Origin: Psychrilyobacter atlanticus DSM 19335
Lineage (GTDB): Bacteria; Fusobacteriota; Fusobacteriia; Fusobacteriales; Fusobacteriaceae
Direction of reading: 5' to 3'
Length of the DNA: 64,000 nucleotides
Assembly: GCF_000426625.1 (NCBI RefSeq)
Contig: NZ_KE384547.1
Coordinates: forward strand, 542,986 to 606,985
Both the position numbers and the translations under genes were made by a program. Under the pieces are notes generated by a model, which was not told the origin of the DNA, did not search any database, and saw only the letters and a list, made by a program, of their open reading frames with translations. This document shows, piece after piece, positions 47,591-64,000 of this stretch; position 1 is the stretch's first letter; each line of letters begins with the position of its first letter.

Positions 47591-48928
47591 ATGTTAGATA
47601 ATTTAGGAAATAAATTCCAAGGAATATTTAAAAAGGTAAGGGGACATGGAAAATTAACAGAGGATAATATAAAGGCTGCCTTAAAAGAAGTAAGGTTGTC
47701 ATTATTAGAAGCTGATGTTAACTACCGTGTAGTAAAGGACTTTGTAAATAAAATAAAGGAAAAAGCTGTAGGAGAAAATACACTTAGTGGTATCAATCCT
47801 GGACAGCAATTTATAAAAATCGTAAATGATGAATTAACAGAACTATTAGGTGGGACAAATGCGAGATTAACTAAGGCTCACAGAGGTCCGACAATAATCA
47901 TGTTAGCTGGATTGCAGGGAGCAGGTAAAACTACCTTTGCAGCTAAGTTAGCAAAATATTTGAAAAAAAATGGAGAGAAACCGTTTTTAGTAGGGGCAGA
48001 CGTATATAGACCGGCAGCTATGAAACAACTTCAAGTTTTAGGAGACCAGATTGGTGTACCTGTATATTACGAAGAAGGAAGTAAAGACGCTGTAGGTATT
48101 TGTCAAGCTGGTGTAAAAAAAGCCAGAGCCGAAGAAGCAACTTATATAATCCTGGATACAGCAGGAAGACTCCATATAGATGAAGGTCTTATGGAAGAGT
48201 TAAATCAGATAAGAAAAAAAGTCAGACCTCAAGAAATACTATTAGTAGTAGATGCAATGATTGGTCAAGATGCAGTTAATTTAGCAAGCAGTTTCAACGA
48301 AACTTTAAGTATAGATGGTGTAGTATTAACAAAGTTAGATGGAGACACCAGAGGTGGATCTGCGCTATCAATCAAAGCAGTAGTTGGAAAGCCGATTAAA
48401 TTTATTGGTGTAGGAGAAAAGCTAGAGGATATCGAATTATTTCATCCTGAAAGATTAGTATCTAGAATCCTAGGAATGGGAGATGTGGTTTCCTTGGTTG
48501 AAAGAGCTCAAGGTGCCATAGATGAAGATGAAGCTAAGTTACTAGAAGAAAAATTAAGAAAGCAAGAATTTGATTTAGAAGATTTTCTAAAGCAATTACA
48601 AAATATAAAGAAAATGGGACCTATTGGAAATATCTTGAAGATGTTACCAGGAGTAGGAGATCTAGGAGATCTAGCACCAGCTGAAAAAGAGATGAAAAAA
48701 ACAGAAGCAATTATTCAGTCTATGACTGTAGAAGAAAGAAGAAAACCAAAAGTTATAAATGCCAGTAGAAAGAAAAGAATAGCTAGAGGATCTGCTACCC
48801 AAGTTCATGACATAAATAAGATGTTAAAGCAATTTGAACAAATGAAGGGTATGATGAAGATGTTCAGCGGTGGTAAAGGGATGCCTGGAATGCCTAAGAT
48901 GGGTAAAGGGTTCAAATTACCGTTTTAA
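47591..48928 (+). CDS. ffh: Signal recognition particle protein Ffh
   Basis: This 445-residue GTPase binds signal sequences and 4.5S RNA. It has N domain, G domain with GLQGAGKTT, DTAGR and TKLDGD, and a Met-rich M domain ending GMPKMGKGFKLPF. ATG at 47591 follows GAGGTG; an in-frame ATA-like start 7 codons upstream is rejected. It ends 56 bases before rpsP. Confidence 0.96.
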   Translation: MLDNLGNKFQGIFKKVRGHGKLTEDNIKAALKEVRLSLLEADVNYRVVKDFVNKIKEKAVGENTLSGINPGQQFIKIVNDELTELLGGTNARLTKAHRGPTIIMLAGLQGAGKTTFAAKLAKYLKKNGEKPFLVGADVYRPAAMKQLQVLGDQIGVPVYYEEGSKDAVGICQAGVKKARAEEATYIILDTAGRLHIDEGLMEELNQIRKKVRPQEILLVVDAMIGQDAVNLASSFNETLSIDGVVLTKLDGDTRGGSALSIKAVVGKPIKFIGVGEKLEDIELFHPERLVSRILGMGDVVSLVERAQGAIDEDEAKLLEEKLRKQEFDLEDFLKQLQNIKKMGPIGNILKMLPGVGDLGDLAPAEKEMKKTEAIIQSMTVEERRKPKVINASRKKRIARGSATQVHDINKMLKQFEQMKGMMKMFSGGKGMPGMPKMGKGFKLPF

Positions 48929-48984
48929 AACACAAATTATAATAAATTATTAAATAAATTAAAATGAGAAAAGGAGAAATAATT

Positions 48985-49248
48985 ATGTTAAAGATTAGAT
49001 TAACTAGATTAGGAAGCAAGAAGAGACCTGTTTACAGAGTAGTAGCAATGGAAGCATTACAAAAAAGAGATGGAAAGGCAATAGCTTACTTAGGTAACTA
49101 CTATCCATTAGAAGATTCTAAAGTAGTATTAAAAGAGGAAGAAATCTTAAGATTATTAGGAAACGGAGCTCAACCTACGAGAACTGTTAAATCTTTATTA
49201 ACTAAAGCTGGAATCTGGGCTAAGTTTGAAGAATCAAAGAAAAACTAA
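48985..49248 (+). CDS. rpsP: 30S ribosomal protein S16
   Basis: This 87-residue protein starts MLKIRLTRLGSKKRPVYR, as S16 does. AAGGAG precedes the ATG at 48985. The longer reading from 48964 adds seven residues across the ribosome binding site. The usual partners rimM, trmD and rplS do not follow; a terminator and a long repeat gap do instead. Confidence 0.97.
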   Translation: MLKIRLTRLGSKKRPVYRVVAMEALQKRDGKAIAYLGNYYPLEDSKVVLKEEEILRLLGNGAQPTRTVKSLLTKAGIWAKFEESKKN

Positions 49249-49266
49249 TTTTATTTTATAAAATTT

Positions 49267-49296
49267 AAAAAGAACCCGAAAGGGTTCTTTTTTTTA
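49267..49296 (+). terminator. Terminator of rpsP with GAAA loop
   Basis: AAAGAACCC-GAAA-GGGTTCTTT (49269-49290) is followed by T. The loop is a stable GNRA tetraloop. Confidence 0.92.
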
Positions 49297-49314
49297 GAAA
49301 AATAATTATAGATA

Positions 49315-50185
49315 TGTTTTAGTTGGGAATTAAACAGAAAAAATATAATCTCTGTAATCTACGATAAAAAGAAAAATCCAAAGTTTCCGCCTTTGATACG
49401 GCTATGTTTCTTTTCGTGAGTCACATTTAAATTTATTTCTTTATTGAGTATAAACAAATTTAATACTCATGAATTGAAACGAGAAAGTAACCGCAAGGGT
49501 CATCACCAAAATATCTAGAGATTATTACATAATCTAAGAATTTTGAGAAAAAGCTCACTTTTTCTAAATAATGTTAATAAGTGAGACCATGGATACCCAT
49601 TTCTTAGTGGGGTGCCTGACGGGCATGGAGGGTTCGACGAAACTCGCAAGAGATATTTTGAGAAGTAGGATCACATCTAGAAAAAGGAATGTACTCAAGA
49701 TTTCAAAGTCAGAACCTAGTCAGTGGTAAAGGCAGCAGGTTCTAACCAAGAAATAGAAGCTTTAAGACCTGTGTAAATTAGAAATTTTTAGTGTATCTCG
49801 ATAGAGATTAGGCGTTCAAAGGGTAAAATCTATAAATTCATACACAGTGATCAAAGACCTAACCTTGGACACGGAGATATACAGAGGGAAAAGAGAGCAC
49901 GGAAAAAGAAATGGTCGCGAATGACACAAATTGATACGAAAAAAATCTCTGTGAAACTCTCATCTTATCTCAGAGAAACTCTGTGTTCCTAAAAAAAGAG
50001 AAAAAGATAGCACGCGGATGTTATTACATACACGGATAGAAGCTATGAATAAACAGGATTTTATTGTTTTTGGTTAAAACCAAGAAAAAAAGATTTCTTA
50101 GTGTGCTTTCTGACCTACCCTTTGTGATCTTAGTGATGAGATTGGGTTTGTAATCTGTGCACCTATAGATCTATTGGAGGGGATA
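49315..50185. repeat. Intergenic repeat mosaic 5
   Basis: No supported gene. The element head lies at 49372-49401 and the second-type tail at 49551-49696. Also present are GACACGGAGATATACAGAGG near 49868, CGCGAATGACACAAATTGAT near 49916, CACGGATAGAAGCTATGAAT near 50031, and an AAGATTTCTTAGTG module at 50078-50150. Confidence 0.75.
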
Positions 50186-50240
50186 AAACACATATAACTT
50201 AAAAATAACTTAAAAAAAGCAGTGTTTTATGATAGTATGG

Positions 50241-50262
50241 TTATACGATTAAACCGTATAAT
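50241..50262 (+). promoter_or_regulatory. Palindrome with TATAAT upstream of the polysaccharide locus
   Basis: TTATACG-ATTAAAC-CGTATAA (50241-50261) is a 7-bp inverted repeat. The right arm overlaps TATAAT (50257-50262), so a regulator bound here could control a -10 element; the -35 is poor. It lies 100 bases before the Wzz-like gene, the first gene of the locus. Confidence 0.5.
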
Positions 50263-50360
50263 ATTAAACTTTGATTTTTTGTTTATAAAAGGTAAAATAT
50301 AAGATAGAATCTATTGAAATTATGATATAATGGAAGGAAAAGATTGATTGGAGGAGAGAG

Positions 50361-51305
50361 ATGAGTAAAGAAATTTTAAAGCAGGAAGGAAGAGGTTATG
50401 AGGATGAGATAAACTTAGTAGATCTGCTGAAGATATTGATAAAAAATAAGGGATTAATATTATTAACGACTATAATAATTACAGCTTTTAGTATAGGAGG
50501 TGCTCTGTATATTAGATCTAATAAGATAAATAGATTTGGACAGAATTTTATATTGAAAACTTTAGCTGATAGTTACTATGGAAAGAAAGCACAGTTAAAA
50601 ATAAAAAGTTTTAATGTGGAAGAGATGTTGTTAGATGATGGTATGGTAGATAAATTTTATGCTAATGAGGATTTTAATGAATATTATTTGGAGAAAATGA
50701 AAAATGAAAAAACTACTTCAGATGAGAGAAGAAAATTTTTAAATGATTCCATTGAATTGAAGGGAATAACAGAAAATAAAAAAATTAAATACTATACATT
50801 GAATACAACAATAAAAGATGAGGTGCTCAGTAAAAAAATGGTCGGGTTGTACCTAAGTATTATAAATCTAAAAAAAGTAACACTTATAAAAGATGCAATA
50901 GCAGAGGAAGAGTCTTTAGTTTTACAGAAAAGAGATCTATATGGTGAAAGAGTTAAAGGTGATGAAAAGAAGATAGCAGAGATAATAAAGAATCAATCGG
51001 TTTCAATATTGGAAAACCAGAATGTGATGTCTATTTTGACAATTACCAATCCGACCTTGATCCAAGAAATGAATAGTAATAAGGAATTATATAGTAAGTA
51101 TTATGAGCAAGCTATAGGAATAAAAGGGGTAAAAGAAAATAAGAACTTAGATCAACAGGTTGAGAAAATATCATCTATCTATAAAATAGAAGAGAAAAGT
51201 AAAGCTAAGATGATAGTAGCTATAGGGCTTATATTGGGGTTGTTCTTAGGGATCTTTTTAGCCTTTATGAAGGAGTTCTTTGCAAATATAGATTTGAAGA
51301 ACTAA
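50361..51305 (+). CDS. Wzz-like polysaccharide chain-length determinant
   Basis: This 314-residue protein has two membrane segments (about 33-52 and 284-303) and a periplasmic, helix-rich middle part, the usual topology of Wzz/polysaccharide co-polymerase proteins. The N-terminal part EINLVDLLKILIKNKGLILL matches the Wzz family start. No kinase domain follows the second membrane segment. It sets chain length with a Wzy polymerase, such as that at 60952. GGAGGAGAG precedes the ATG. It is separated from the next gene by a repeat gap of 540 bases. Confidence 0.85.
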   Translation: MSKEILKQEGRGYEDEINLVDLLKILIKNKGLILLTTIIITAFSIGGALYIRSNKINRFGQNFILKTLADSYYGKKAQLKIKSFNVEEMLLDDGMVDKFYANEDFNEYYLEKMKNEKTTSDERRKFLNDSIELKGITENKKIKYYTLNTTIKDEVLSKKMVGLYLSIINLKKVTLIKDAIAEEESLVLQKRDLYGERVKGDEKKIAEIIKNQSVSILENQNVMSILTITNPTLIQEMNSNKELYSKYYEQAIGIKGVKENKNLDQQVEKISSIYKIEEKSKAKMIVAIGLILGLFLGIFLAFMKEFFANIDLKN

Positions 51306-51309
51306 AGAG

Positions 51310-51740
51310 AGATACTTTTTTGTCGCAGATTACGCAGAGAAATGCGGATTATAACCAAGAAAAAATAAATCTTGGACACGGAGATACAGTGAGGGAAAAA
51401 AAGAGAACACAGAGAAAGAAATAGTCACGAATGACACAAATTAATACGAAAAAAATCTCTGTGAACCTCTCGTGTTATCTCAGAGAAACTCTGTGTCAAA
51501 AAGAAAAAGACTTCTGTGGAATAGCGATAGGATAATTTACTACTTGTATATTATTCGTGTAATTTGTGACGAAAGTTTGGATTTTAAGTTTTAATCAGTA
51601 AAGGTCCTAGCTATTAATCAGGTTTTATCAATGTATCTTTGAATTCAAAGGGAATAGAACACGGATACTCCGCATACACGGAAAGAACTACAATAATCAC
51701 GGATGTCTGTGAGGAGCGAAGATTCCTGTTTGCTATTAAA
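51310..51740. repeat. Intergenic repeat mosaic 6
   Basis: No supported gene. TTTGTCGCAGATTACGCAGA near 51319, GACACGGAGATACAGTGAGG near 51375, CACGAATGACACAAATTAAT near 51425, CTCTGTGAACCTCTCGTG near 51454, and GTCCTAGCTATTAATCAG near 51606. It splits the Wzz-like gene from the sugar transferase. Confidence 0.7.
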
Positions 51741-51847
51741 TGTGGTAAAAATATGGTAAAATATATAGGAAATATTTCACTTTTTAATGAAGTGTTGAGA
51801 TAAAGATCTACTTGGGTAGATTAGAAAAGATAGTAAAAAGGAGAGAA

Positions 51848-53143
51848 ATGAGACATAATAAAAACACACTTACAAGAATTATATTTTTTACAATTATATA
51901 TCTAACTTATTATAAGTTATTCAGAGTATTTCATAGATCAGATAATTTAGCTTTTTATATTATGTTTTTAATTATGGGGTTATCCTATTATCTTGTAGGT
52001 TACTTAGATTTTAGTAATGGGAAGATCACAAAAAAAGATATAGTATATTCAGTAGCAATAAATTTTATTTTAGGTGGAATAAACTATGTTTTTACAGGAA
52101 GTAAAAAAGAATTCACTGTATTTATTGTGATGATAATAGTAGCGAATTTAGTTAAATGTTTATTGGCGAGTTTAAATAAAAGTAGAATAAATGTTCTTTT
52201 GACGGGAGAAAATAAACTAACTAATAAAATAAAAAAAAGTATTGTTAAATCTGATAGGTATGTTTATGTAGGAAAGTGCTGTAGTGAAAATATAGAGAAT
52301 TTAAAAGAAATTGTCTTTGAAAAAAAAATAGATATGATAATAATAACAGAAAAATCTATTCTAAGAGATTACCAAAATTTACTGTTGGATCTTAAATTAA
52401 AAGGGATAAAGATACAGACCTACTGGCAGTTTAATGAAGAAACCGAGGGGAAAATTGATGTTACTAAGATCGATGAAAAATGGTTGATTTATAGTGTTGG
52501 TTTTAACATCCTTCATAACAGTCTTCAAAGAAGGGTTAAAAGATTATTTGATATAGTAGTAGCAACTTTAATAGCTATCCCAGCTTTTCCAATAATGGTG
52601 ATAACTGCTATCTTGTTAAAGATAATAGGGCTAATAGATAAAAAAGAGTCTGGGCCCCTATTATTTTGTCAGATGAGGGTAGGATTAGGGAACGAACCTT
52701 TTAAGATGTATAAGCTTCGAAGTATGATAACTAAGGAACACTGGGCAGCGGTAGGTTTTGATCCGGAAAAGGAAAGTTGGACAACTATAGGAGATCCTAG
52801 GGTTACGAAATTAGGTAATTTTTTAAGGAAAACTAGATTAGATGAGTTACCACAGTTGTTAAATGTATTTCGAGGAGATATGTCTTTTGTAGGACCAAGA
52901 CCAGAAAGTGTAGTTTATGTGGAGGAGCTGGAAAAAACAATCCCGTTTTATAATTTGAGACATAGTGTACAACCTGGATTAACAGGATGGGCACAGGTAA
53001 TGTATCCCTATGGGGCTACTGTAGAAGATTCGCTGAGAAAGCTGGAGTTTGATCTTTACTATATAAAATATCAAAACTTTGTTCTAGATTTAGGGATATT
53101 TTTTAAAACGGTGAAGACGGTGTTGTTTGGAAGAGGAAGGTAG
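51848..53143 (+). CDS. Initiating undecaprenyl-phosphate sugar transferase (WbaP/WcaJ type)
   Basis: This 431-residue protein loads the first sugar phosphate on undecaprenyl phosphate. It has four N-terminal membrane segments (about 10-115), a nucleotide-binding-like middle part, a fifth membrane segment (about 230-260, FDIVVATLIAIPAFPIMV) and the catalytic domain with MYKLRSM, TRLDELPQLLNVFRGDMS and VGPRPE. ATG at 51848 follows AAGGAGAG; the TTG at 51812 is rejected. The sugar is unknown. Confidence 0.9.
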   Translation: MRHNKNTLTRIIFFTIIYLTYYKLFRVFHRSDNLAFYIMFLIMGLSYYLVGYLDFSNGKITKKDIVYSVAINFILGGINYVFTGSKKEFTVFIVMIIVANLVKCLLASLNKSRINVLLTGENKLTNKIKKSIVKSDRYVYVGKCCSENIENLKEIVFEKKIDMIIITEKSILRDYQNLLLDLKLKGIKIQTYWQFNEETEGKIDVTKIDEKWLIYSVGFNILHNSLQRRVKRLFDIVVATLIAIPAFPIMVITAILLKIIGLIDKKESGPLLFCQMRVGLGNEPFKMYKLRSMITKEHWAAVGFDPEKESWTTIGDPRVTKLGNFLRKTRLDELPQLLNVFRGDMSFVGPRPESVVYVEELEKTIPFYNLRHSVQPGLTGWAQVMYPYGATVEDSLRKLEFDLYYIKYQNFVLDLGIFFKTVKTVLFGRGR

Positions 53144-53191
53144 TCTGCCTTCACAAGACGTACAAAAAATGTATAAAAGAATGGAGGAAAT

Positions 53192-54004
53192 ATGGAAAAA
53201 TTTTCAGTTTTGATGTCGGTATATAAAAATGAAAAAGCTGAATATATGAAGTTAGCTTTGGAAAGCATCTATACAGAACAAATATTAAAACCAAATGAGA
53301 TAGTATTAGTTCAAGACGGCCCTCTTACAAAGGAACTTTACGAATTAATAAATAAATATAAAGAAAAATATAAAGGGATTTTAAAAATTGTATCTTTAAA
53401 AAAAAATATGGGGTTAGGAAATGCATTAAATATAGGTTTAAAAAAATGCTCATATGAGATAGTGGCTAGAATGGATACTGATGATATAGCTTTTCCTGAA
53501 AGGTTTGAAAAGCAAATCCCTTATATAAGCAAAAATAAAGAATTGGGAGTGCTCGGAAGCTCTTTATTGGAATTTGAAGGAACTAAAGATAATATATTGG
53601 CAGAAAAAAAAGCACCAATTAAAAATATAGATAAATATATAAAATTTAGGAATCCGATAAATCATCCAACTGTAGTATTTAGAAAATCAGAAGTTTTAGC
53701 TGTAGGGAGTTATAAAGAAATAAATTTATTTGAAGACTATTATTTATGGGCTAGAATGTATATGAATAATAGTAAAATAGAAAATTTAGGAGATGTGTTA
53801 TTATATTTTAGATCATCAATAGAAACGTATGAAAGACGTGGTGGTTGGAAATATGTAAGAGCTGAGTGTAGTTTACAAAAAGAATTTTTTAAAATAAATT
53901 TAATTAATCTAAGTGAGTATATTAGAAATATAATAATAAGGAATTTAGGGAAAATAGTTCCAAATAGAATAAGGAAAATAATTTATTTAGAGTTATTGAG
54001 GTAA
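53192..54004 (+). CDS. Family 2 glycosyltransferase
   Basis: This 270-residue enzyme has a GT-A fold: FSVLMSVYKNEKAEYM at the start, IVLVQDGPL, the metal-binding MDTDDIAFPERF and NHPTVVFRKSEV. No membrane segment is seen, so it likely works on the lipid-linked sugar at the inner face. Donor and acceptor are unknown. GGAGG precedes the ATG. Confidence 0.9.
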   Translation: MEKFSVLMSVYKNEKAEYMKLALESIYTEQILKPNEIVLVQDGPLTKELYELINKYKEKYKGILKIVSLKKNMGLGNALNIGLKKCSYEIVARMDTDDIAFPERFEKQIPYISKNKELGVLGSSLLEFEGTKDNILAEKKAPIKNIDKYIKFRNPINHPTVVFRKSEVLAVGSYKEINLFEDYYLWARMYMNNSKIENLGDVLLYFRSSIETYERRGGWKYVRAECSLQKEFFKINLINLSEYIRNIIIRNLGKIVPNRIRKIIYLELLR

Positions 54005-54071
54005 ATGTATTAGGATATAACGAAAAGTAAATAATAATATATTAAAATCAAATAAAAAATTGAGGTGGAGT

Positions 54072-55250
54072 ATGCCAAAGCTTAAACCATTTAAGGGGTA
54101 TAGATTAAAAAATGAGAATCTTAATAAGTTAGTTCATTTAAATCATAGTTCTTTGAATAAACTGAAAATATTAGAAAAAGAGAAATTAGTTAGATTAGGA
54201 ACTGTAAATGGAAAAATGTCAGATCATATAGAACTTTTAGATAGAGAAAAAGATATTTATTATAATGATTTTTTAGTCAAAGATCTTGAAGATAGTTACT
54301 ATATATATTCGTATGGAGATTTAATAACTAAAAAAGAATATAGAGGGATTCTTGGGAAGGTTCTTGTCAGAGACTATTTAAATGGTAATATAAAAACCCA
54401 TGAATTAACAAGAGATGAAAAAATTACAGATATGGTAAAAAATTTGAAAAACTTTAATAGTGAAACAGCACCTGTATTTTTAACATTTAAGAAACAAGGT
54501 AAAATAGATGAACTATTATTCAGATATTCAAAGGATTCTAACTTAATTCATACAGTGATAATGGGGAATATAGAGAAAAAAATATGGAAAATCTCTAAAA
54601 AAGAGGAAATAGAGCAAATTCAAAAAGAATTTAAAAAAATAGAGACATTTTATATAGCTGACGGACATCATAGATCTTATTCGAAAAGCAAATATAGTGT
54701 AGATAGTAATTTTCTGGCAGTAGTTTTTTCAGAAGATCAAATAGAAGTATTGGATTATAATAGATTAGTAGTCGATTTTAATGGGAGAAACTTAGACGAT
54801 ATTTTTGAAGAGATTGAAAAGGATTTTGAGTTGATAAAAACATCAAAATCAGAAATTTTATGTAGATCTAAGAATGATTTTGTAATATATGTGAATAAAA
54901 CTTGGAATTTATTTAACTTAAGAAAAGGTATAAGAGAAAGCTTAAAAGAAGTAGAAGAGAAATTAGATGTATCAATACTTCAAAATTATGTATTAGATCC
55001 AATATTTGATATAAAAAATCCAACAAGAGATAAAAGAATAAAGTTTTTTGGTGGTTTAGGGCACAAAGAGAAATTAGTGAAAGAAGCAGATAAAGAAAAT
55101 GGAGTTGCATTTTTTCTTTACCCTACAGGAAAAGAAGAGTTTTTTCAAATAGCTGACCAAAATAAGATAATGCCTCCAAAATCTACATGGTTTGAACCTA
55201 AAATAGCATCAGGAATAATAATTCATAAATACAAAGAGGGTGAAGAATAA
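54072..55250 (+). CDS. DUF1015 family protein
   Basis: This 392-residue soluble protein starts PKLKPFKGYR, has the family motif FYIADGHHRSYSK near residue 195 and ends with MPPKSTWFEPKIASGI, the hallmarks of DUF1015. No function is established that I can name with certainty. It shares one base with the next gene (TAATG), and the third gene overlaps the second, so the three form a tightly coupled cassette in the polysaccharide locus. A role in preparing a small phosphorylated amino compound is possible. ATG at 54072 follows GAGGTGGAG. Confidence 0.85.
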   Translation: MPKLKPFKGYRLKNENLNKLVHLNHSSLNKLKILEKEKLVRLGTVNGKMSDHIELLDREKDIYYNDFLVKDLEDSYYIYSYGDLITKKEYRGILGKVLVRDYLNGNIKTHELTRDEKITDMVKNLKNFNSETAPVFLTFKKQGKIDELLFRYSKDSNLIHTVIMGNIEKKIWKISKKEEIEQIQKEFKKIETFYIADGHHRSYSKSKYSVDSNFLAVVFSEDQIEVLDYNRLVVDFNGRNLDDIFEEIEKDFELIKTSKSEILCRSKNDFVIYVNKTWNLFNLRKGIRESLKEVEEKLDVSILQNYVLDPIFDIKNPTRDKRIKFFGGLGHKEKLVKEADKENGVAFFLYPTGKEEFFQIADQNKIMPPKSTWFEPKIASGIIIHKYKEGEE

Positions 55251-57070
55251 TGCAAGGACTGATATTAGCAGCAGGAATGGGAAATAGACTGGGTGAATAT
55301 ACTAACGATAACACTAAGTGTATGGTAGAAGTTAATGGAAATAGATTAATAGATCTAGCTTTAGAAAAATTATATAACTGCGGCGTTAGAAAAACAATTA
55401 TGGTTATAGGATATAAAGGTGAGAATGTAAAGAAGTACCTGGGGTCAAACTATAAAGAAATGGAAATAGAATATGTTGAAAATGATGTCTATAATAAAAC
55501 AAATAATATCTATTCATTGTGGCTTGCAAAAGATAAGCTAATTGAAGATGACACAATATTAATTGAAAGTGATTTAATATTCGACGAGAAAATATTAAGG
55601 GATTTAATTGAAAGTAACGACAAAAATAGTGCTGTTGTATCAAAATTTGAAAGATGGATGGACGGAACTGTAACAGTGTTAAATAAAAAGCGAGAAATTG
55701 TAAGTTTTATTCCAGGAGTAAACTTTGATTGGGCAGCAACAAAAGAGTATTATAAAACTGTAAATATTTATAAGTTTTCCAAAGAGTTTTCTGAAAATAC
55801 GTATGTTCCATTTTTGGAAGCATATATAAAAACCTTAGGAAATAATGAATATTATGAGCAAGTTTTAAGAGTAATATCCCAGTTGACAGAAGTAGATTTT
55901 AAAGCACACATATTAACTGAAGAAAAATGGTACGAGATTGATGATGCTCAAGATTTAGATATAGCTGGTGCTATATTTGCCAAGGGAGAAGAAAAATTAG
56001 AGAAATTTCAAAAAAGATATGGAGGTTACTGGAGATTTCCAAGAGTAAAAGATTTTTGTTATTTAGTAAATCCTTATTTTCCTAACAAAGAGATGTTAGA
56101 TGAATTTAAATATAACTTTGATACATTATTATCTGAGTATCCTTCTGGTCAAGGGGTTCAAAATTTATTAGCAGGAAAGATGTTTGCTTGTAATCCTAAA
56201 AATATAATTGTAGGAAATGGAGCCGCAGAATTGATAAAAATAATAACTAATGAGATCGAAGGGAAATTTGGAGTTATATTCCCTACATTTAATGAATATC
56301 CTGAAAGGATAGGCTACGATAGAGTGGAACAGTTTATACCTAAAAATAATGAATTTAAATATTCTTCTGATGAATTAATCGAGTTTTCTAAAACAATAAA
56401 AGCATTAATCCTTATAAATCCAGATAATCCAAGTGGACACTTTTTAAGAAAAGAAGATATCATTAAAATCTTAGACTCTTTTGAAGAAACAGGTCAATAC
56501 TTAATTCTAGATGAATCATTTGTAGATTTTGCAGGGAAAGAGGAGATGTACTCAGCTATTGATAATGAATTAATGAATAGGTATAAAAATTTAATAGTTA
56601 TTAAAAGTATCAGTAAAAGCTATGGAGTACCTGGATCAAGGCTGGGAATACTGGCAACAGCTAATAAAAATATAATGGATAAGGTAAAAAAAGAAGTATC
56701 TATTTGGAATATTAACTCATTTGGAGAGTATTTTTTGCAAATATTTGGGAAGTATTCAAAAGTATATTTAAAGGCTTGTCACCAAATTGCGAATGAGAGA
56801 GATAGATTTTATGGCGAATTACAAAATATAAGTTTTTTAAATGTAGTTCCATCAAAAGCTAATTATTTCTTGTGTGAATTAACTAATGATTTTACAGCAA
56901 CGCAACTTGCAACTAAATTATTGAATGATGACGATCTATATATAAAAGATTTAACGGGAAAGATAGGAATTGAAGGGGAAAAATATATCAGGTTAGCTGT
57001 AAGGGATAAAAGTGATAATGATTATCTTTTAGAAAAACTAAAAGGGGTTGAATTTAAAAGTGAAAGATAA
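55250..57070 (+). CDS. Fusion of LicC-like nucleotidyltransferase and HisC/CobD-like PLP enzyme
   Basis: This 606-residue protein has two parts. Residues 1-235 are a nucleotidyltransferase (GLILAAGMGNRLGEY, TKCMVEVNG, ESDLIFDE) close to phosphocholine or sugar-phosphate cytidylyltransferases. Residues about 255-600 are a fold-type I PLP enzyme of the aminotransferase I/II class, with LINPDNPSG, LDESFVDFAG and the PLP-lysine motif SISKSYGVPGSRLGI. That class includes HisC, and CobD, a phosphothreonine decarboxylase. The likely job is to make an amino-alcohol phosphate and activate it with CTP for transfer to a polysaccharide. Overlap with the first and third genes indicates one operon. Confidence 0.85.
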   Translation: MQGLILAAGMGNRLGEYTNDNTKCMVEVNGNRLIDLALEKLYNCGVRKTIMVIGYKGENVKKYLGSNYKEMEIEYVENDVYNKTNNIYSLWLAKDKLIEDDTILIESDLIFDEKILRDLIESNDKNSAVVSKFERWMDGTVTVLNKKREIVSFIPGVNFDWAATKEYYKTVNIYKFSKEFSENTYVPFLEAYIKTLGNNEYYEQVLRVISQLTEVDFKAHILTEEKWYEIDDAQDLDIAGAIFAKGEEKLEKFQKRYGGYWRFPRVKDFCYLVNPYFPNKEMLDEFKYNFDTLLSEYPSGQGVQNLLAGKMFACNPKNIIVGNGAAELIKIITNEIEGKFGVIFPTFNEYPERIGYDRVEQFIPKNNEFKYSSDELIEFSKTIKALILINPDNPSGHFLRKEDIIKILDSFEETGQYLILDESFVDFAGKEEMYSAIDNELMNRYKNLIVIKSISKSYGVPGSRLGILATANKNIMDKVKKEVSIWNINSFGEYFLQIFGKYSKVYLKACHQIANERDRFYGELQNISFLNVVPSKANYFLCELTNDFTATQLATKLLNDDDLYIKDLTGKIGIEGEKYIRLAVRDKSDNDYLLEKLKGVEFKSER

Positions 57071-58016
57071 AAATAAATCTTTAGTTTTAAGTTATAGTGA
57101 TATAAAAGAAATGAAATTGTCTATAAAAAATATAATAGATGAGATTAAAAGCACAGTAGTAAAGCATGCAAATAATGAGGTTTATTTAGAGCCTAAAATC
57201 ACTTTAAGACCTCGAGAAGGACAATTTTATACAGCTATGCCAGGTGGAATAAAAGATGAATATTTAGGGTTAAAGTTAATAGAAAGATTTGATAAAAGTG
57301 AAAATACTCCAGGAATATTTGGTACACTATTACTAAATGATGAGAAGACAGGGAAGCTACTTTCAATTATGGATGCGACATGGTTGACTTCAATAAGAAC
57401 AGGTGCTATAGCAGCTATAACTATGGAGAAATTAGCCCAAAAAGGCTTTGATTCTATATCTATAATTGGATTAGGAAATACAGCTATGGCTTCTTTAATT
57501 TGTATAAAAGAAATTTTTCCTGATTTAAAGAAAATTAATATCCTAGCATATAAAGATGCTCACAATAGATTTATGAAGAGATTTGAAGGCTATGATTTTG
57601 AATTTAATGTTTACGAAGATTTAGAGTCTGTTATAAAAGCTAGTAAGGTAGTAATAACTAGTGTTACTTATGCAGGTAAACCCTTTGTGAAAAAGGAATG
57701 GCTACAAGATGGAGTGTTAGCTATTCCTATTCATGCAAGAGGATGGCAAGAATGTGATCCTTATTTTGATAAAGTTTATACAGACGATTATGGACATACA
57801 AAACATTTTATTCCAAACTTGACTGCAGAACTAGGAGAAGTAGTAGCAGGATATAAAAAAGGGAGAGAAAGCGATGCAGAAAAAATAATTGCTTATAATA
57901 TAGGAATGGCAATAGATGATATAGCTGTAGCTAAACTGATATATAAGAAAGCTTTAATAGAGAAAAAAGGAGTATATATAGATATCGCAGATTATAATGA
58001 AGAATATTATGTTTAG
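57060..58016 (+). CDS. Ornithine cyclodeaminase / mu-crystallin family protein
   Basis: This 318-residue NAD(P)-dependent protein has the family start (LSYSDIKEM), GGIKDEYLGLKLIERF, the substrate-loop SIMDATWLTSIRTGA and the dinucleotide motif IIGLGNTAMAS. The family includes ornithine cyclodeaminase, imine reductases, alanine dehydrogenase and the SbnB amino-acid dehydrogenase, so the substrate is open. GTG at 57060 lies 12 bases after GGGG; TTG at 57048 lies directly next to it, so the start is uncertain by four codons. It overlaps the end of the fusion gene. It ends at TAG, but the same frame remains open for 70 codons after it. Confidence 0.82.
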   Translation: MKDKNKSLVLSYSDIKEMKLSIKNIIDEIKSTVVKHANNEVYLEPKITLRPREGQFYTAMPGGIKDEYLGLKLIERFDKSENTPGIFGTLLLNDEKTGKLLSIMDATWLTSIRTGAIAAITMEKLAQKGFDSISIIGLGNTAMASLICIKEIFPDLKKINILAYKDAHNRFMKRFEGYDFEFNVYEDLESVIKASKVVITSVTYAGKPFVKKEWLQDGVLAIPIHARGWQECDPYFDKVYTDDYGHTKHFIPNLTAELGEVVAGYKKGRESDAEKIIAYNIGMAIDDIAVAKLIYKKALIEKKGVYIDIADYNEEYYV

Positions 58017-58234
58017 AATTATAGTAGAATTTTAAGGTGTGTAGATAGTCTAAACATAAATAATGTTGTTAATTGGGCACAAGATAATATGGGAAAAGAA
58101 TATTTAATTAACAATAAGATAAATCCCAATAATAAAGAGGGATTGTATCCACAAAATTCAGGTATTAAAACAAAAGAAGAGTTAATTAAGTATCTAAATG
58201 AAAAATATGGAGAAAATTGTAATAAAATTATTTA
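58017..58234 (+). pseudogene. Open frame in phase after the ornithine-cyclodeaminase-like stop
   Basis: After the TAG at 58014-58016 the same frame is open for about 72 codons to a TAG near 58234 (NYSRILRCVDSLNINNVVNW and on to YGENCNKII). It has no start codon with ribosome binding site that I favour. It may be a broken C-terminal piece of another gene. I do not recognise it. Confidence 0.35.
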
Positions 58235-58321
58235 GAAAACTTGGTTTAATGGCAGAGATTTTAAAAATCTATAGTATTTTGAGATATCTATTTATAAAAT
58301 TATAAGAATTCAAAATGTAAT

Positions 58322-58352
58322 AAGGATCAGAAGAAGTACTCTTCTGATCCAA
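58322..58352. repeat. Perfect 11-bp inverted repeat
   Basis: GGATCAGAAGA-AGTAC-TCTTCTGATCC lies between the two gene remnants. The flanks are A-rich on the right, and there is no clear T run, so it may be a terminator weak on both strands or a leftover of a mobile element. Confidence 0.5.
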
Positions 58353-58439
58353 AAAGTTCAAATTACAAATATTCATTTTTGAGAGAAAATACTCTCGTTT
58401 ACTGTGCTACAAATTTGTATGAAATATTAGAAATATAAT

Positions 58440-58694
58440 TAGGTTAAAAAAACTTTACATTTAGAAACATGGTGTGAAGAAGATGACATAAGATACTTTG
58501 AAAGATATCAAGAAAAGCATATCTTTAAATAAACTAATATTTTTCCTCTGAAAAAATATAAATTTTACAATGTAGAAGTATTAGGTCCGACTACAGACAA
58601 AATTTTAATATATTTATATGGCTCTGACTATAGGGGTGTTTTTTATAAAAAAGTATCATTTTATAAAAAAGAAAATTTTATTAAAAGATTTTAA
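58440..58694 (+). pseudogene. Decayed LicD-family gene
   Basis: The frame starting after a TAG at 58440 reads KTLHLETWCEEDDIRYFERY then QEKHIFK, a stop at 58530-58532, and in the same frame TNIFPLKKYKFYNVEVLGPT, ending YLYGSDYRGVFYKKVSFYKK with a stop at 58692-58694. IFPLKKYKF and YLYGSDY are typical of the C-terminal part of LicD proteins. The N-terminal catalytic part (the DYGTLLG and acidic motif) is missing. It is thus a truncated gene with an internal stop, the third LicD-type sequence in the locus. Confidence 0.65.
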
Positions 58695-58759
58695 AGCTGT
58701 CAAAATAGAGATGAATTTTTAATAATTAAAATCATAAAAAATAAGCAAAAGGACAAATT

Positions 58760-60220
58760 ATGAAAAAGAGTATTACAAAAAATTTTATATATAGCATGTT
58801 GTTAAATATAATGAACTTGGTAGTTCCTATTTTAATAACTCCATTTATTTTTAAAAAATTAGGTCCTGAAAGTATAGGAGAAGTAGAATTTACTTATTCA
58901 TTAGCAAAATATTTTTTAATAATAGCAACATTTGGAACATTAACTTATGGGTTAAGAGAATTAAGTAAAGTGAAAGATAATAAAAAACAAAGTAATTTAG
59001 TATTTTCAGAGATTTATTCTATTAAAATACTAATGACATTATTATGCACAGCAACCTATTATGTATATGTATATATACAATTTAGAGAGAAAGAAACCTA
59101 TGGGTTATTTTTAATTTTAGGTGGATTAATAATTTCTAATTTATTCAATATAGAATGGGTGAATAGAGCATATGAAAACTTTAAATTTATAGCTATAAAA
59201 ACTATCATAATAAGATTAATCTACATAATTCTTATAGTTTTATTAATAAAAGATAAAAATTCTAAGCAATTATATTTAAGTTTAATAGTTATCAATGAAA
59301 TGTTAAATTATATAGTTAGTTATATATATATATTTAAAAATAATATTTCTTATAGAGTTAAAGATGTGAAAATCTCTAATTTAAAGTATCACTTTAAATT
59401 ATTGCTAGTAATAGTTTTAATGATTAATGCAAATGTATTGTATACACAATTTGATAAAATAATGTTAGGGTTTTATTCTACTAAAAATGAAGTTGCATAT
59501 TATTCAATAGGACAAAAAGTTATGGGGATAAGCTATACAATAGTAATGACAATGGTATCAGTAAGTGTGCCTAGGCTTTCATATTATTTAGCAAATGAAA
59601 AAGAAAAATATTATAAGTTACTAAATAAATTAATTGAATTTTTATCATTATTAGTAATACCGATGTCTATAGGTATAATAGGATTGAGCAAGGAAATAAT
59701 ATTATTCTTTGGAGGAACTCAATATTTGGAAGCGGATTTGTCAATTAAATATTTTGGATTTAGGCTTGTAGTTGCAGGAGCGGCAGGAATACTAAATGGT
59801 CAAATATTATTTTTGCATAAAAAAGAAAAAATAATATTTAAGTTTTTGGTAATCTCAGGGATATTAAATGTAATTTTAAAATTCAGTTTAATAAGGTTTG
59901 AAAATTTAAATTCTTCAACGGCTATTTTAACAACAATAATAGCTGAAATATTTTGTATATCTTTATATTATTCTTATATAATTAAAAAGCTAAAAATAAG
60001 TTTAAATAGATATAAAGCAATAAGAACATATGTAGTTATAAGTTTTGCTTTTATACCAACTATTTACTTTATAAAACAATTTTCATTTCAATATATATTA
60101 ACAATAATTTTTTCGATTATAGTTTGTATAGTGATATATACTATAGGATTATTAATGGCAAAAGATAAATCGTTTTTAGAAATAATAAAGATAATTAATA
60201 GAAAATTTAAAAGGAGATAA
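58760..60220 (+). CDS. Wzx-type polysaccharide flippase
   Basis: This 486-residue membrane protein of the MATE/Wzx fold has about 12-14 hydrophobic helices. The start KNFIYSMLLNIMNLVVPILI and the segment FKKLGPESIGEVEFTYSLAKYF are as in O-antigen and capsule flippases. It moves the lipid-linked repeat unit across the inner membrane. Very AT-rich. ATG has weak GGACAAATT upstream. It is followed after one base by a LicD gene. Confidence 0.9.
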   Translation: MKKSITKNFIYSMLLNIMNLVVPILITPFIFKKLGPESIGEVEFTYSLAKYFLIIATFGTLTYGLRELSKVKDNKKQSNLVFSEIYSIKILMTLLCTATYYVYVYIQFREKETYGLFLILGGLIISNLFNIEWVNRAYENFKFIAIKTIIIRLIYIILIVLLIKDKNSKQLYLSLIVINEMLNYIVSYIYIFKNNISYRVKDVKISNLKYHFKLLLVIVLMINANVLYTQFDKIMLGFYSTKNEVAYYSIGQKVMGISYTIVMTMVSVSVPRLSYYLANEKEKYYKLLNKLIEFLSLLVIPMSIGIIGLSKEIILFFGGTQYLEADLSIKYFGFRLVVAGAAGILNGQILFLHKKEKIIFKFLVISGILNVILKFSLIRFENLNSSTAILTTIIAEIFCISLYYSYIIKKLKISLNRYKAIRTYVVISFAFIPTIYFIKQFSFQYILTIIFSIIVCIVIYTIGLLMAKDKSFLEIIKIINRKFKRR

Positions 60221-60221
60221 T

Positions 60222-60941
60222 ATGCTAATTGAATTAAAAAGTAAATTTAAAAAAATATGTTTTAAATTAGGAATATCAAATTTAGGGAAAAAAATATATT
60301 TAGTATTATTTTCTAAATGTTTTGAAAATAATTTAAATAAAAATTTCAAAAAAAATGGTGAAGAAATCCTTAGAAAATTATACAATGCATTTGATGAAGT
60401 GGGATTAAAATGTTGGTTAGATTATGGAACGTTACTGGGTTATGTAAGAGAAAAAGACTTTATTTCCCATGATTTAGATATCGATGTTTCTACTTTATTA
60501 TCTAATAAAGGGGAAGAGTTACAAATAGCTTTAGAAAATCAAGGATTTAAAAAAGTTGCTGATCTAGAAATAGACAATGGAAAGTATGGGGCAGAAGAAA
60601 CATATAGATATAAAGGTGTCGATTTTGATATATTTTTTTATAGAGAGCATGAAGGTAAATATTTGACACACGGTTTTACAAGAAAAGATAATTTAACTTG
60701 GGACGAGACAGAAAAAAAATTAGGAGGATTAATTGTCAGAGAGTTAACATTTTCCTTGTTCGAATTGGAAAAAATTAACTTTAAAGGGGTCCAATGTTAT
60801 ATTCCCTCAAATGCAGAGCAACACTTAGAGGAACATTATGGTTCAGGATATATAAAACCTGATGATAATTATGAAGCTAAAAAACAAAATAGAAAGACAT
60901 TAAATAAAAAAATAGGAAAAATTAAATTAAATATAAAATGA
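60222..60941 (+). CDS. LicD family phosphotransferase
   Basis: This 239-residue protein is of the LicD family, which transfers phosphocholine or similar groups from a CDP donor to a saccharide. The nucleotidyltransferase-fold motif is WLDYGTLLGYVREKDFISHD then LDIDVS, near residues 66-90, with VDFDIFFY as a third acidic motif and EHYGSGYIKPDD at the end. It begins with a short basic, hydrophobic stretch (KFKKICFKLGISNLGKKIYL). AGGAG precedes the ATG. The donor may be made by the fusion at 55250. Confidence 0.87.
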   Translation: MLIELKSKFKKICFKLGISNLGKKIYLVLFSKCFENNLNKNFKKNGEEILRKLYNAFDEVGLKCWLDYGTLLGYVREKDFISHDLDIDVSTLLSNKGEELQIALENQGFKKVADLEIDNGKYGAEETYRYKGVDFDIFFYREHEGKYLTHGFTRKDNLTWDETEKKLGGLIVRELTFSLFELEKINFKGVQCYIPSNAEQHLEEHYGSGYIKPDDNYEAKKQNRKTLNKKIGKIKLNIK

Positions 60942-60951
60942 AGGTGTATAA

Positions 60952-62142
60952 ATGAGAATAAAAATAGAAGAAGTTATTTTAATCCTAGGGACTATTTTAT
61001 GTCCACTGTTATTTTTCCCATTAATATTTTTAGAAAGCTTAGTGAATAAAGAAATAAAAAAAAAATTCATATTTTCATTAGGAATTTTAGCATATCTGTA
61101 TATTCCTACAACATTTGACGATTTAAGTAGAATTTATATTGAGTATGAAACTCTAATAATAGATCAATGGGTAGACATTTTTAATAGAAAAGATTTTTTT
61201 CTACCTCTAACAATCTATTTAAAAAATCGATTTTGGTTTAGTAAAGAATTAATGCCGTTTTTAGCATTAATAGTAATTTATGGAAGTAGTTTTAAAATAT
61301 TTAATAAATTAGTTGAAGTTAAATCTAAATCTAAAATTAAAATAATTGAGTTTCTGTTTTTATTTTTATTACTCTTTACGAATTTGATACCAAGAGATAT
61401 AATAACAAAAGTTCGAATGCCATTGTCGTTAGGAATTATTTTATATTCTATCTATATAAGAGTGTATGAAAATAAAAAAAATAAAGCTATAATAATTTCT
61501 ATTTTTGCTTTTACGACTCATTATTCATCAATAGTATATGTTTTTTTATGCTCATTTTTAGGAAATAAAAAAATAAAAAAAATGATCGATGTGTTATTCT
61601 GTATCTCACCTTTATTTTATTTATTAACTCCTAAACTATTATATACTTTACTACAATTTTTACCTATTCCTTCAAAATTTGATCGATCGATCTATACGTA
61701 TACATTAGGTAGCTATGGAATAGGATATGAGAAGGCAATAAATGCAAAGATTTATAGTTATACATATAATTTAGTAGGATATTTTAATTTATTATATTTA
61801 TTTTTATTTAAAGGAAAATCTAAACTAAGACCATATGCAAAGGGGTTATGGGTATTTGGAAGTATATTTCACGTGGTTAATAATTTATTTTTTAGATTTT
61901 CGTTTCTACCAAGAATATTAACTGTTTTAGTCATGGTTGATGAGTATTTAATAGAGAATAAAAAAACTAAATGTAAATATGAATATATGATTTTTTATTT
62001 ATTAGTATCAATAATTTTATTTTCATTGACATTATACATGATGCGGGAAAGTATTTTAGAGAGTTGGATAAAAAAATGTTATTACAATATAATAATGGTA
62101 TTTAATAATAATATTAAAATAAATGAATTTATAATAAAGTAA
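60952..62142 (+). CDS. EpsG/Wzy-like polysaccharide polymerase
   Basis: This 396-residue membrane protein has about 10 helices and a periplasmic-loop style seen in EpsG-type Wzy polymerases (TTFDDLSRIYIEYETLI near residue 45-61, then PRDIITKVRMPLSLGIILYS). Wzy proteins have low identity, so the call rests on topology and on its place between Wzx and glycan-modifying genes. It would join repeat units at the periplasmic face, with chain length set by the Wzz-like protein. GAAGGTG precedes the ATG. Confidence 0.75.
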   Translation: MRIKIEEVILILGTILCPLLFFPLIFLESLVNKEIKKKFIFSLGILAYLYIPTTFDDLSRIYIEYETLIIDQWVDIFNRKDFFLPLTIYLKNRFWFSKELMPFLALIVIYGSSFKIFNKLVEVKSKSKIKIIEFLFLFLLLFTNLIPRDIITKVRMPLSLGIILYSIYIRVYENKKNKAIIISIFAFTTHYSSIVYVFLCSFLGNKKIKKMIDVLFCISPLFYLLTPKLLYTLLQFLPIPSKFDRSIYTYTLGSYGIGYEKAINAKIYSYTYNLVGYFNLLYLFLFKGKSKLRPYAKGLWVFGSIFHVVNNLFFRFSFLPRILTVLVMVDEYLIENKKTKCKYEYMIFYLLVSIILFSLTLYMMRESILESWIKKCYYNIIMVFNNNIKINEFIIK

Positions 62143-62159
62143 AAGTTTGGAGGGAACAA

Positions 62160-63182
62160 ATGAATGAAGAAATTGATGTGATAATAATATGGGTTGATGG
62201 GAATGACCCTAAGTGGTATAGAGAATTTTTAAAATATAGCCCTCAAAAAATAGATACCTCAAATAGTAAATCAAGATTTAGAGATTTTGGAACCTTGAAG
62301 TATGTTTTTAGAGGGATCGATAAATGTATTCCATGGGTAAGGAAGATACATTTTGTTACTTCAGGTCATAAACCAGAGTGGTTAAATGTAAATCATCCCC
62401 AAATTAATTTTGTAACACATAAAGAAATGTTTTATGAGAAGAAACACCTACCAGTGTTTAATTCAAGTGCTATTGAATTAAACTTTCTAGGAATTAAAGA
62501 TCTTGCTGACAAGTTTATATATTTTAATGATGATATGTTAATTTTAAAGAAAACTTCTCAAGAAAGGTTTTTTAAAAATAATTTACCAGTAGACTTTCTA
62601 CTCCAAGGGGTTCCTAGAAGAGGGAAGCTCTATAAAAAATTTATTTCAAATTCTTTATGGGTTGATGCAATTAATAATAATATAGATCTAATCAATAAGT
62701 TTTTTAATAAGAAAGAACAAGTGGAACAGAACAAAGAAAAGTATGTTTTTAAAGAGTATGGCTTTAAAAATATACTAAAAAACAAAATCTCTAATATAGT
62801 TTCAAAATATTATCACTTTGAACACTATCACCATCCTCAGCCATATTTAAAAAGAACATTGGAGGAAGTTTTTAAAGAATACAAAGGTGAGATATTGCTA
62901 ACAAGTTCTCAAAAGTTTAGAAGTAAAACAGATTTGACACAATATATTTATAGATATTGGCACCTTGTAAAGGGAGAATTTAATCCACATTATGAAAAGG
63001 ATTTTAAAACTTATAATGTATCTTCAAAAGAAGTAGCGGATCAATGCATAGAGGGGTTGAAAAAATATAGATTTGTATGTATAAATGATGATCCTAACCT
63101 TAAAGAATATGACTTAATAAAAAAGAACATTACAGAAGAGCTAGATAAAATTTTCCCTAAAAATTCTCAATATGAATTATAA
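62160..63182 (+). CDS. Stealth family sugar-phosphate transferase
   Basis: This 340-residue protein has the Stealth blocks: CR1 IDVIIIWVDGNDPKW at the start, CR2 (FRDFGTLKYVFRGIDKCIPW, then NFVTHKEMF, FNDDMLIL), CR3 with HYHHPQPYLKRTLEEVF, and CR4-like WHLVKGEFNPHY. Stealth proteins are hexose-1-phosphoryl transferases related to GlcNAc-1-phosphotransferase, which build phosphodiester-linked capsules. GGAGGG precedes the ATG. Confidence 0.9.
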   Translation: MNEEIDVIIIWVDGNDPKWYREFLKYSPQKIDTSNSKSRFRDFGTLKYVFRGIDKCIPWVRKIHFVTSGHKPEWLNVNHPQINFVTHKEMFYEKKHLPVFNSSAIELNFLGIKDLADKFIYFNDDMLILKKTSQERFFKNNLPVDFLLQGVPRRGKLYKKFISNSLWVDAINNNIDLINKFFNKKEQVEQNKEKYVFKEYGFKNILKNKISNIVSKYYHFEHYHHPQPYLKRTLEEVFKEYKGEILLTSSQKFRSKTDLTQYIYRYWHLVKGEFNPHYEKDFKTYNVSSKEVADQCIEGLKKYRFVCINDDPNLKEYDLIKKNITEELDKIFPKNSQYEL

Positions 63183-63201
63183 GGGATAAGAGGAGAATAA
63201 T

Positions 63202-63879
63202 ATGGAGTATATAAAGGATATTATAAGTAAATTGGGGTTATTTAATTTAATAAAAAAAATATTTAGAAAGCCTTTATTAAAATATAAATCAGCAAGATTT
63301 CATAAAAATTCTGAAGATGTCTTAAAAAAAATATATGAAATTATGAAAGAAAGTAACTTTCAACTTTGGTTTGAGTATGGGACATTATTAGGGGCAGTAA
63401 GAGAAAATGACTTCATAAAGCATGATTATGATTTGGATTTTGGAATGAAATATGAAGCTAATAAGATAGAAAAAATTGGTGAAAAATTATTAGCGAATGG
63501 GTTTAAAAGAGTTAGGAGGATAGCTTTAAAGGATAAGGTAATGGAAGAAACATACAGTTTAAATGGAGTTTTTTTAGATATATTTTATTTCTTAGAATCA
63601 GAAGAAAACTTTATAGGGTATGTATTTGAAGCAGAAAAAAATATGAGTTTTAATGAAACAATAAAGCAAAAAGGAGGATTAATAACGAATGAACTTAAAC
63701 TAACAAAATTTTCTTTAGAAAAAATTAAATTTAAAGGTTTAGACGTTTTAATCCCTAGAAATTCAGATGAACATCTAAAAGAGTGTTATGGTAAAAATTA
63801 TATGATACCGAATAGTAATTGGCAACCGTGTCACAATAATAGGCGAAAAAAAATAGAAATATTAGGAAAATTAAAGTGA
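63202..63879 (+). CDS. LicD family phosphotransferase, second copy
   Basis: This 225-residue paralog of the protein at 60222 has WFEYGTLLGAVRENDFIKHD then YDLDFG (about 51-77), VFLDIFYF and ECYGKNYMIPN near the end. The first acidic residue pair differs (EYG for DYG). The N-terminal stretch KDIISKLGLFNLIKKIFRK is similar in style to that of the paralog. AGGAG precedes the ATG. Two paralogs suggest two acceptor positions or two donors. Confidence 0.87.
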   Translation: MEYIKDIISKLGLFNLIKKIFRKPLLKYKSARFHKNSEDVLKKIYEIMKESNFQLWFEYGTLLGAVRENDFIKHDYDLDFGMKYEANKIEKIGEKLLANGFKRVRRIALKDKVMEETYSLNGVFLDIFYFLESEENFIGYVFEAEKNMSFNETIKQKGGLITNELKLTKFSLEKIKFKGLDVLIPRNSDEHLKECYGKNYMIPNSNWQPCHNNRRKKIEILGKLK

Positions 63880-63884
63880 AAATT

Positions 63885-63955
63885 ACTGTTTTGTGGAGGA
63901 GGTCCAGAAAAGTCTGCAAATAGAGAAATACTTCCTATGATAATTTCTTAATACC
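63885..63955 (+). pseudogene. Short frame resembling the start of a sugar-modifying protein
   Basis: After the second LicD gene the frame AAA TTA CTG TTT TGT GGA GGA GGT reads KLLFCGGGPEKSANREILPM then IIS and a stop. The start KLLFCGGG recalls N-termini of some glycosyltransferases. It is too short for a gene and likely a remnant. The window ends 45 bases later. Confidence 0.25.
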
Positions 63956-64000
63956 ATAAAAATTTATGAGTTTTCATTAATTCAAGTACAAGTTTAAAAT

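Follow-up and report, generated by a model that had tools for sequence, protein, structure and literature searches.

A possible serine-to-phospho-opine pathway supplying LicD phosphotransferases in a polysaccharide locus of Psychrilyobacter atlanticus

Introduction

In the Lic-1 system (LicA, LicB, LicC and LicD), a CTP-dependent LicC-type enzyme makes a cytidine diphosphate (CDP) donor, from which LicD transfers a phospho-amine to a glycan. Here we consider a polysaccharide locus of Psychrilyobacter atlanticus DSM 19335 (Fusobacteriota), in which a three-gene cassette lies together with LicD genes and encodes a DUF1015 protein, a fusion of a nucleotidyltransferase with a pyridoxal phosphate (PLP) enzyme, and a protein of the ornithine cyclodeaminase (OCD) family. 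The window, by which we mean the whole analysed stretch of 64,000 nucleotides (contig NZ_KE384547.1, positions 542,986 to 606,985 of the forward strand), comes from a genome of 3.54 Mb. The locus has two LicD genes (PF04991), whereas the choline-kinase family to which LicA belongs (PF01633) finds no match in the whole genome; the pathway works like Lic-1 but is therefore not a member of it, and serine is the proposed source of its amine, by way of the fused PLP decarboxylase. An earlier note on this DNA had described both licA and licB as missing. For LicA this extends to the genome, while the LicB choline permease is absent from among the locus genes, no genome-wide search for it having been made.

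Several other systems share parts of this design. The PntC-AEPT fusion (6pd1/6pd2) likewise joins a cytidylyltransferase to a PLP enzyme, but its PLP part is a class V transaminase, in contrast to the CobD-like decarboxylase family of the window protein, and no phosphonate genes are seen in the window locus. SMUL_1544 (6oux), the closest relative of the PLP half and similar to it in its active-region motifs, is a stand-alone enzyme of norcobamide synthesis. The DUF1015 protein recalls the free serine kinase SerK (5x0b/e/j, 1vk1) in having a DGHHR and a C-terminal PKT motif in the same order, although it exceeds SerK considerably in length and is only remotely similar to it. To our knowledge, no opine or tauropine dehydrogenase has been described in a LicD pathway or as fused to LicD, yet opine dehydrogenases (Octopine_DH, PF02317) and the OCD family that includes tauropine dehydrogenase exchange places in one slot beside the fusion. 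Cj1436 of Campylobacter jejuni is described as converting serine phosphate to ethanolamine phosphate for the capsule (PMC12409886, PMC11800397), where, in contrast to the present case, an amide bond attaches the group and neither CDP nor LicD is involved (PMC12409886). The Clostridioides difficile Type A flagellar glycan (CD0241-CD0244) bears a phospho-amino acid delivered through a proposed CDP-linked donor (PMC10714395); there, however, the amino acid is threonine, N-methylated and not decarboxylated, a TagF-like transferase replaces LicD and there is no PLP fusion.

Results and discussion

What could be the product of the cassette? The best explanation of the locus as a whole, which we hold with roughly even confidence, is a route from serine to a phospho-opine that feeds LicD. 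DUF1015 would convert free L-serine to O-phospho-L-serine, which the PLP half of the fusion would decarboxylate to phosphoethanolamine; the nucleotidyltransferase half would then combine phosphoethanolamine with CTP to give CDP-ethanolamine. The amine of phosphoethanolamine or of CDP-ethanolamine would condense with a 2-keto acid, probably pyruvate, and reduction of the imine would yield an N-(1-carboxyalkyl), or opine, derivative; the enzyme of this step would be the OCD-family protein here and an opine dehydrogenase in its place in other genomes. Finally, LicD would attach the phospho-opine to a sugar of the polysaccharide that the locus makes. The direct observations are the presence of the genes, their homology and recurrent adjacency, their replacement of one another and the decayed remnants; from these we infer every reaction, the order of the second to fourth steps and the nature of the keto acid. 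That the cassette makes a CDP donor for LicD is highly probable. Of the earlier proposal, which allowed for an amino acid or a keto-phosphate, a new LicD donor pathway starting from an amino acid rather than choline is supported, the genome having no protein of the choline-kinase family; among the precursors then considered, the data favour phosphoserine or phosphoethanolamine and point away from dihydroxyacetone phosphate.

The fusion comprises a nucleotidyltransferase (residues 1 to about 240) and a PLP domain (about 263-600). Among solved structures, the best matches of the former are the CTP:phosphocholine cytidylyltransferase LicC and the phosphonate cytidylyltransferase PntC, ranking above sugar-1-phosphate enzymes, and we propose that the fusion makes CDP-ethanolamine from phosphoserine and CTP. 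For the PLP half, sequence, fold and motifs all point to SMUL_1544 as the nearest relative: 6oux is its top sequence match among solved structures (E 2e-47, 34% identity over the PLP domain) and ranks first in a Foldseek search with a model of predicted local distance difference test score (pLDDT) 90 (template modelling score 0.79-0.84 on the target). This structure is titled as a decarboxylase, and over the 343 residues matched it is identical to a Sulfurospirillum protein that carries the annotation norcobamide serine-O-phosphate decarboxylase. The DESF motif is present in 90/90 fusion proteins and (I/L)W is near universal among them; DESF, IWN-type and RxxxR motifs are common to the fusions and SMUL_1544 and are not those of HisC, the corresponding motifs being DEAY and PY in HisC and DEAF and PW in CobD. 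In a tree, the fusions and the serine-phosphate enzyme separate from CobD, HisC and most stand-alone homologs with support 98/98, one long-branched stand-alone row falling outside. The PLP half thus probably decarboxylates phosphoserine. Were phosphothreonine its substrate, the donor would carry 1-aminopropan-2-ol phosphate, as might be expected from the relationship to CobD, a threonine-phosphate decarboxylase, and from the phosphothreonine on the C. difficile flagellar glycan (PMC10714395). We consider this very improbable, given that motifs and tree favour the serine-phosphate enzyme and that serine genes are the conserved neighbours of DUF1015.

These neighbours also bear on the source of phosphoserine. 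A DUF1015 profile built from 14 members and run against the whole PDB finds four sequences, namely three of free serine kinase and one of a close homolog, with the two motifs in the same order and E values from 0.0019 to 0.17, a remote similarity. A direct hhalign comparison of DUF1015 with SerK gives 86% probability (P 4.9e-6), whereas six control proteins stay below 0.4%. In all nine Bacteroidota genomes tested, serC is found about 2 kb from DUF1015, and the order serC-serA-DUF1015 is kept in the Bacteroidota loci L140-L149 as well as in a locus of Fusobacteriota (L137:5912-9440); this conserved arrangement is a clue to DUF1015 function independent of the LicD locus. SerC itself is absent from all four fusion-bearing Fusobacteriota, present in 9/9 fusion-bearing Bacteroidota, and mixed in its occurrence among genomes of other phyla, several of these genomes being incomplete. 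Among 96 Fusobacteriales, DUF1015 occurs in 3/3 genomes with the fusion versus 6/93 without it (p 6e-4); scans of viral contigs yielded no relatives. DUF1015 is likely to be a serine kinase. The simplest reading is that it provides phosphoserine in genomes without the usual route, and its presence beside the fusion would be required only if there is no other source of phosphoserine.

The association with LicD is not peculiar to the window, and its core genes are shared by many gut bacteria. A scan of 84,980 species genomes revealed at least 571 stretches that encode fusion relatives; the 80 best loci were retained (about 70 from Bacteroidota, 8 from Spirochaetota and single ones from Verrucomicrobiota and Campylobacterota) and, with plasmid and fusobacterial loci added, 91 were scored. 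The earlier note had held that finding the cassette mainly apart from licD would speak against its reading; in 53/91 loci, the core fusion has LicD no more than three genes away. At positions -1, +1 and +2 relative to the fusion it accounts for 44/259 genes, compared with 16/1081 elsewhere in the loci (p 1e-20), related Bacteroidota dominating these counts, so that the p values overstate independence. A TagF-like CDP-glycerol phosphotransferase is found near the fusion in five loci, mostly those without LicD. In Erwinia, Rahnella, Priestia and Agrobacterium, plasmids carry the fusion with a CDP-alcohol phosphatidyltransferase, rather than LicD, as its neighbour, as would suit a role in lipid or small-molecule synthesis to which LicD adjacency is incidental. 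We regard such a role as the least probable of the alternatives, because LicD adjoins the fusion in genomes of several phyla, much more often than it occurs in the rest of these loci.

The plasmid clusters of Erwinia (L034), Priestia (L035) and Rahnella (L036) partly also encode ATP-grasp proteins and major facilitator superfamily transporters, the Priestia cluster carries a DXR-like gene as well, and all three look like small-molecule pathways. Phosphoenolpyruvate (PEP) mutase and phosphonopyruvate-decarboxylase-like genes adjoin the fusion in L055, L073, L090 and L102, where a single locus may unite phosphonate and phosphoserine routes; PEP mutase was counted only in these four, each with the decarboxylase-like gene, since its profile (PEPM) also marked probable cytidylyltransferase-like proteins (L043, L045, L064). 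One further record, L033 (NZ_CP084075.1), is labelled as a plasmid of Fusobacterium vincentii and is probably a mislabelled chromosome, judging by its size (2.1 Mb) and content.

The product of the third cassette gene belongs to OCD_Mu_crystall (PF02423) and not to Octopine_DH, so that its likeness to opine dehydrogenases is one of functional analogy only. Its best-scoring NCBIfam match is archaeal alanine dehydrogenase, with 142.1 bits against a cut-off of 409.15, and SbnB is likewise far from reached (110.8 against 326.9 bits). The exact set of DUF1015, fusion and OCD gene was found in two Fusobacteriota genomes only, the window's and G021, whose OCD gene (locus L131) is 61% identical to that of the window. 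In 34 of the 91 loci, the gene at +1 of the fusion encodes an opine dehydrogenase of the Octopine_DH family; an OCD gene adjoins the fusion in 16, and the two occur together in only one (p 0.002). Fusion and OCD gene are also paired in Bacteroides cellulosilyticus (L070). Three loci encode opine dehydrogenase and LicD as single fused proteins beside the fusion (L086:11838-14606, L089:11858-13648, L109:11818-13617).

The window itself appears to retain a trace of this exchange. Directly after the OCD gene lies a short frame resembling the C-terminal 50 residues of opine dehydrogenases, an element additional to the genes named in the earlier note. Searched by blastp against the neighbour proteins of the 91 loci, it finds opine dehydrogenases in all of its top eight matches (best E 3.6e-5), a score reached by none of 1000 shuffles; the whole-protein opine dehydrogenase hidden Markov model (HMM) does not detect it. 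Behind it follows a LicD remnant (HMM E 0.013; blastx E 6e-5 with a small LicD set and 0.002 with all neighbour proteins), so that of the decayed third LicD reported earlier a C-terminal piece finds weak support. The resulting order, fusion-(OCD)-opine dehydrogenase end-LicD end-Wzx, matches the fusion-opine dehydrogenase-LicD-Wzx order of Bacteroidota such as L063. The gap beside the OCD gene in G021 has no opine dehydrogenase remnant. Because the decayed opine dehydrogenase end directly follows the OCD gene in the window, and the slot is otherwise filled in a mutually exclusive manner, OCD would have replaced opine dehydrogenase in the same gene position and taken over its work.

N-(1-carboxyethyl)ethanolamine phosphate is a constituent of some Proteus O-antigens, for which no confirmation was found in the open papers searched. 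Taurine resembles phosphoethanolamine. The OCD family includes a sponge tauropine dehydrogenase, both families have members making N-(1-carboxyalkyl) amines, and the known chemistry of both is the reductive condensation of an amine with a 2-keto acid (PMC3840593, PMC4113996). The OCD-like enzyme thus most likely makes an opine, and an opine step in the pathway, which follows from the replacement of one gene by the other, is somewhat favoured. A methyltransferase dependent on S-adenosylmethionine occupies +1 of the fusion, followed by LicD, in two loci (L037:9869-11430, L042:3821-4510), where the amine might be N-methylated rather than converted to an opine.

Several observations weigh against the proposed route. 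Neither reductase is present in 40/91 loci, making the reductase optional, and the counts of both derive mostly from related Bacteroidota. The likeness of DUF1015 to SerK amounts to two motifs (E 0.0019-0.17) and one pairwise profile match, and an AlphaFold model of DUF1015 from three sequences (pLDDT 49) was too poor for the fold search to give anything usable. The PLP half scores 154.9 bits against a cut-off of 290.55 for CobD (NCBIfam TIGR01140) and 133.3 against 276.55 for HisC (TIGR01141), and is therefore filed as neither. Moreover, PEP mutase stands beside the fusion in some Spirochaetota loci, in which a transaminase role is conceivable.

Two alternatives draw on these points. The same serine route could end at CDP-ethanolamine, LicD transferring plain phosphoethanolamine and the reductase serving, for example, to supply or recycle an amino acid such as alanine; the loci devoid of both reductases and the alanine dehydrogenase match of the window OCD protein are in keeping with this. 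Such an ending is unlikely, if still to be reckoned with: reductases of two unrelated families share the slot, and three proteins join opine dehydrogenase to LicD, linking the reduction to the group that is transferred. Alternatively, the PLP half could be a transaminase as in PntC-AEPT, which has the same two-part build, and the donor a CDP- or CMP-linked (cytidine monophosphate) amine derived from an aldehyde or keto-phosphate, such as 2-aminoethylphosphonate or serinol phosphate. This would fit L055 and L102, in which the fusion has PEP mutase and phosphonopyruvate decarboxylase for neighbours, but the PLP half belongs to another family, with a decarboxylase as its nearest relative, and L102 has a second nucleotidyltransferase gene for the phosphonate. 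PEP mutase is also absent from the genes at 48000-64000 of the window and, by eye, from the open frames of the 19 kb downstream, the whole genome not having been searched. We consider the transaminase account improbable.

The remaining features of the locus, which spans 51812-63879 of the window, are collected in Table 1. Pfam profiles confirm the genes named in the earlier note at the places given there. The cassette genes abut or overlap, DUF1015 and the fusion having base 55250 in common and the OCD gene starting inside the end of the fusion gene, as expected for coupled genes. The list of open reading frames places the OCD start at a TTG (57048); the GTG at 57060 is the likelier start.

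Table 1. Genes and gene remnants of the polysaccharide locus, in window coordinates
Feature	Position	Strand	Evidence
Initiating sugar-phosphate transferase (Bac_transf)	51812..53143	+	PF02397 5e-59
GT2 glycosyltransferase	53192..54004	+	PF00535 9e-22
DUF1015, proposed free L-serine kinase	54072..55250	+	PF06245 8e-47
Nucleotidyltransferase-PLP fusion	55250..57070	+	PF12804/PF00483 + PF00155, 6e-29
OCD/mu-crystallin-family reductase, proposed opine-type N-(1-carboxyalkyl) enzyme	57060..58016	+	PF02423 3e-42
Decayed opine dehydrogenase C-terminus	about 58041..58199	+	blastp best E 3.6e-5
Decayed LicD C-terminus	58443..58691	+	HMM E 0.013
Wzx flippase	58760..60220	+	PF01943 3e-21
LicD phosphotransferase 1	60222..60941	+	PF04991 3e-12
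Wzy-type polymerase (EpsG family)	60952..62142	+	PF14897 7e-8
Stealth phosphotransferase, CR1-CR4	62160..63182	+	PF11380 1e-40 + PF17101-PF17103
LicD phosphotransferase 2	63202..63879	+	PF04991 4e-10

Conclusions

The open-licence literature searched contains no description of the fusion, of the opine dehydrogenase-LicD proteins or of the function of DUF1015. We tentatively suggest, short of an even probability, that Fusobacteriota and many gut Bacteroidota make N-(1-carboxyalkyl)-phosphoethanolamine from serine with DUF1015 as the serine kinase, the fusion as decarboxylase and cytidylyltransferase, and an interchangeable OCD or opine dehydrogenase reductase, and that LicD transfers it to glycans as a widespread decoration not described before. 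Surface groups such as amino-acid-like phosphates often decide recognition by antibodies, lectins and phages. If the suggestion is true, LicD proteins without choline genes would gain a defined substrate, DUF1015 would acquire a function as a free serine kinase, and an amino-acid-like phosphate would be predicted on the polysaccharides of common gut bacteria.

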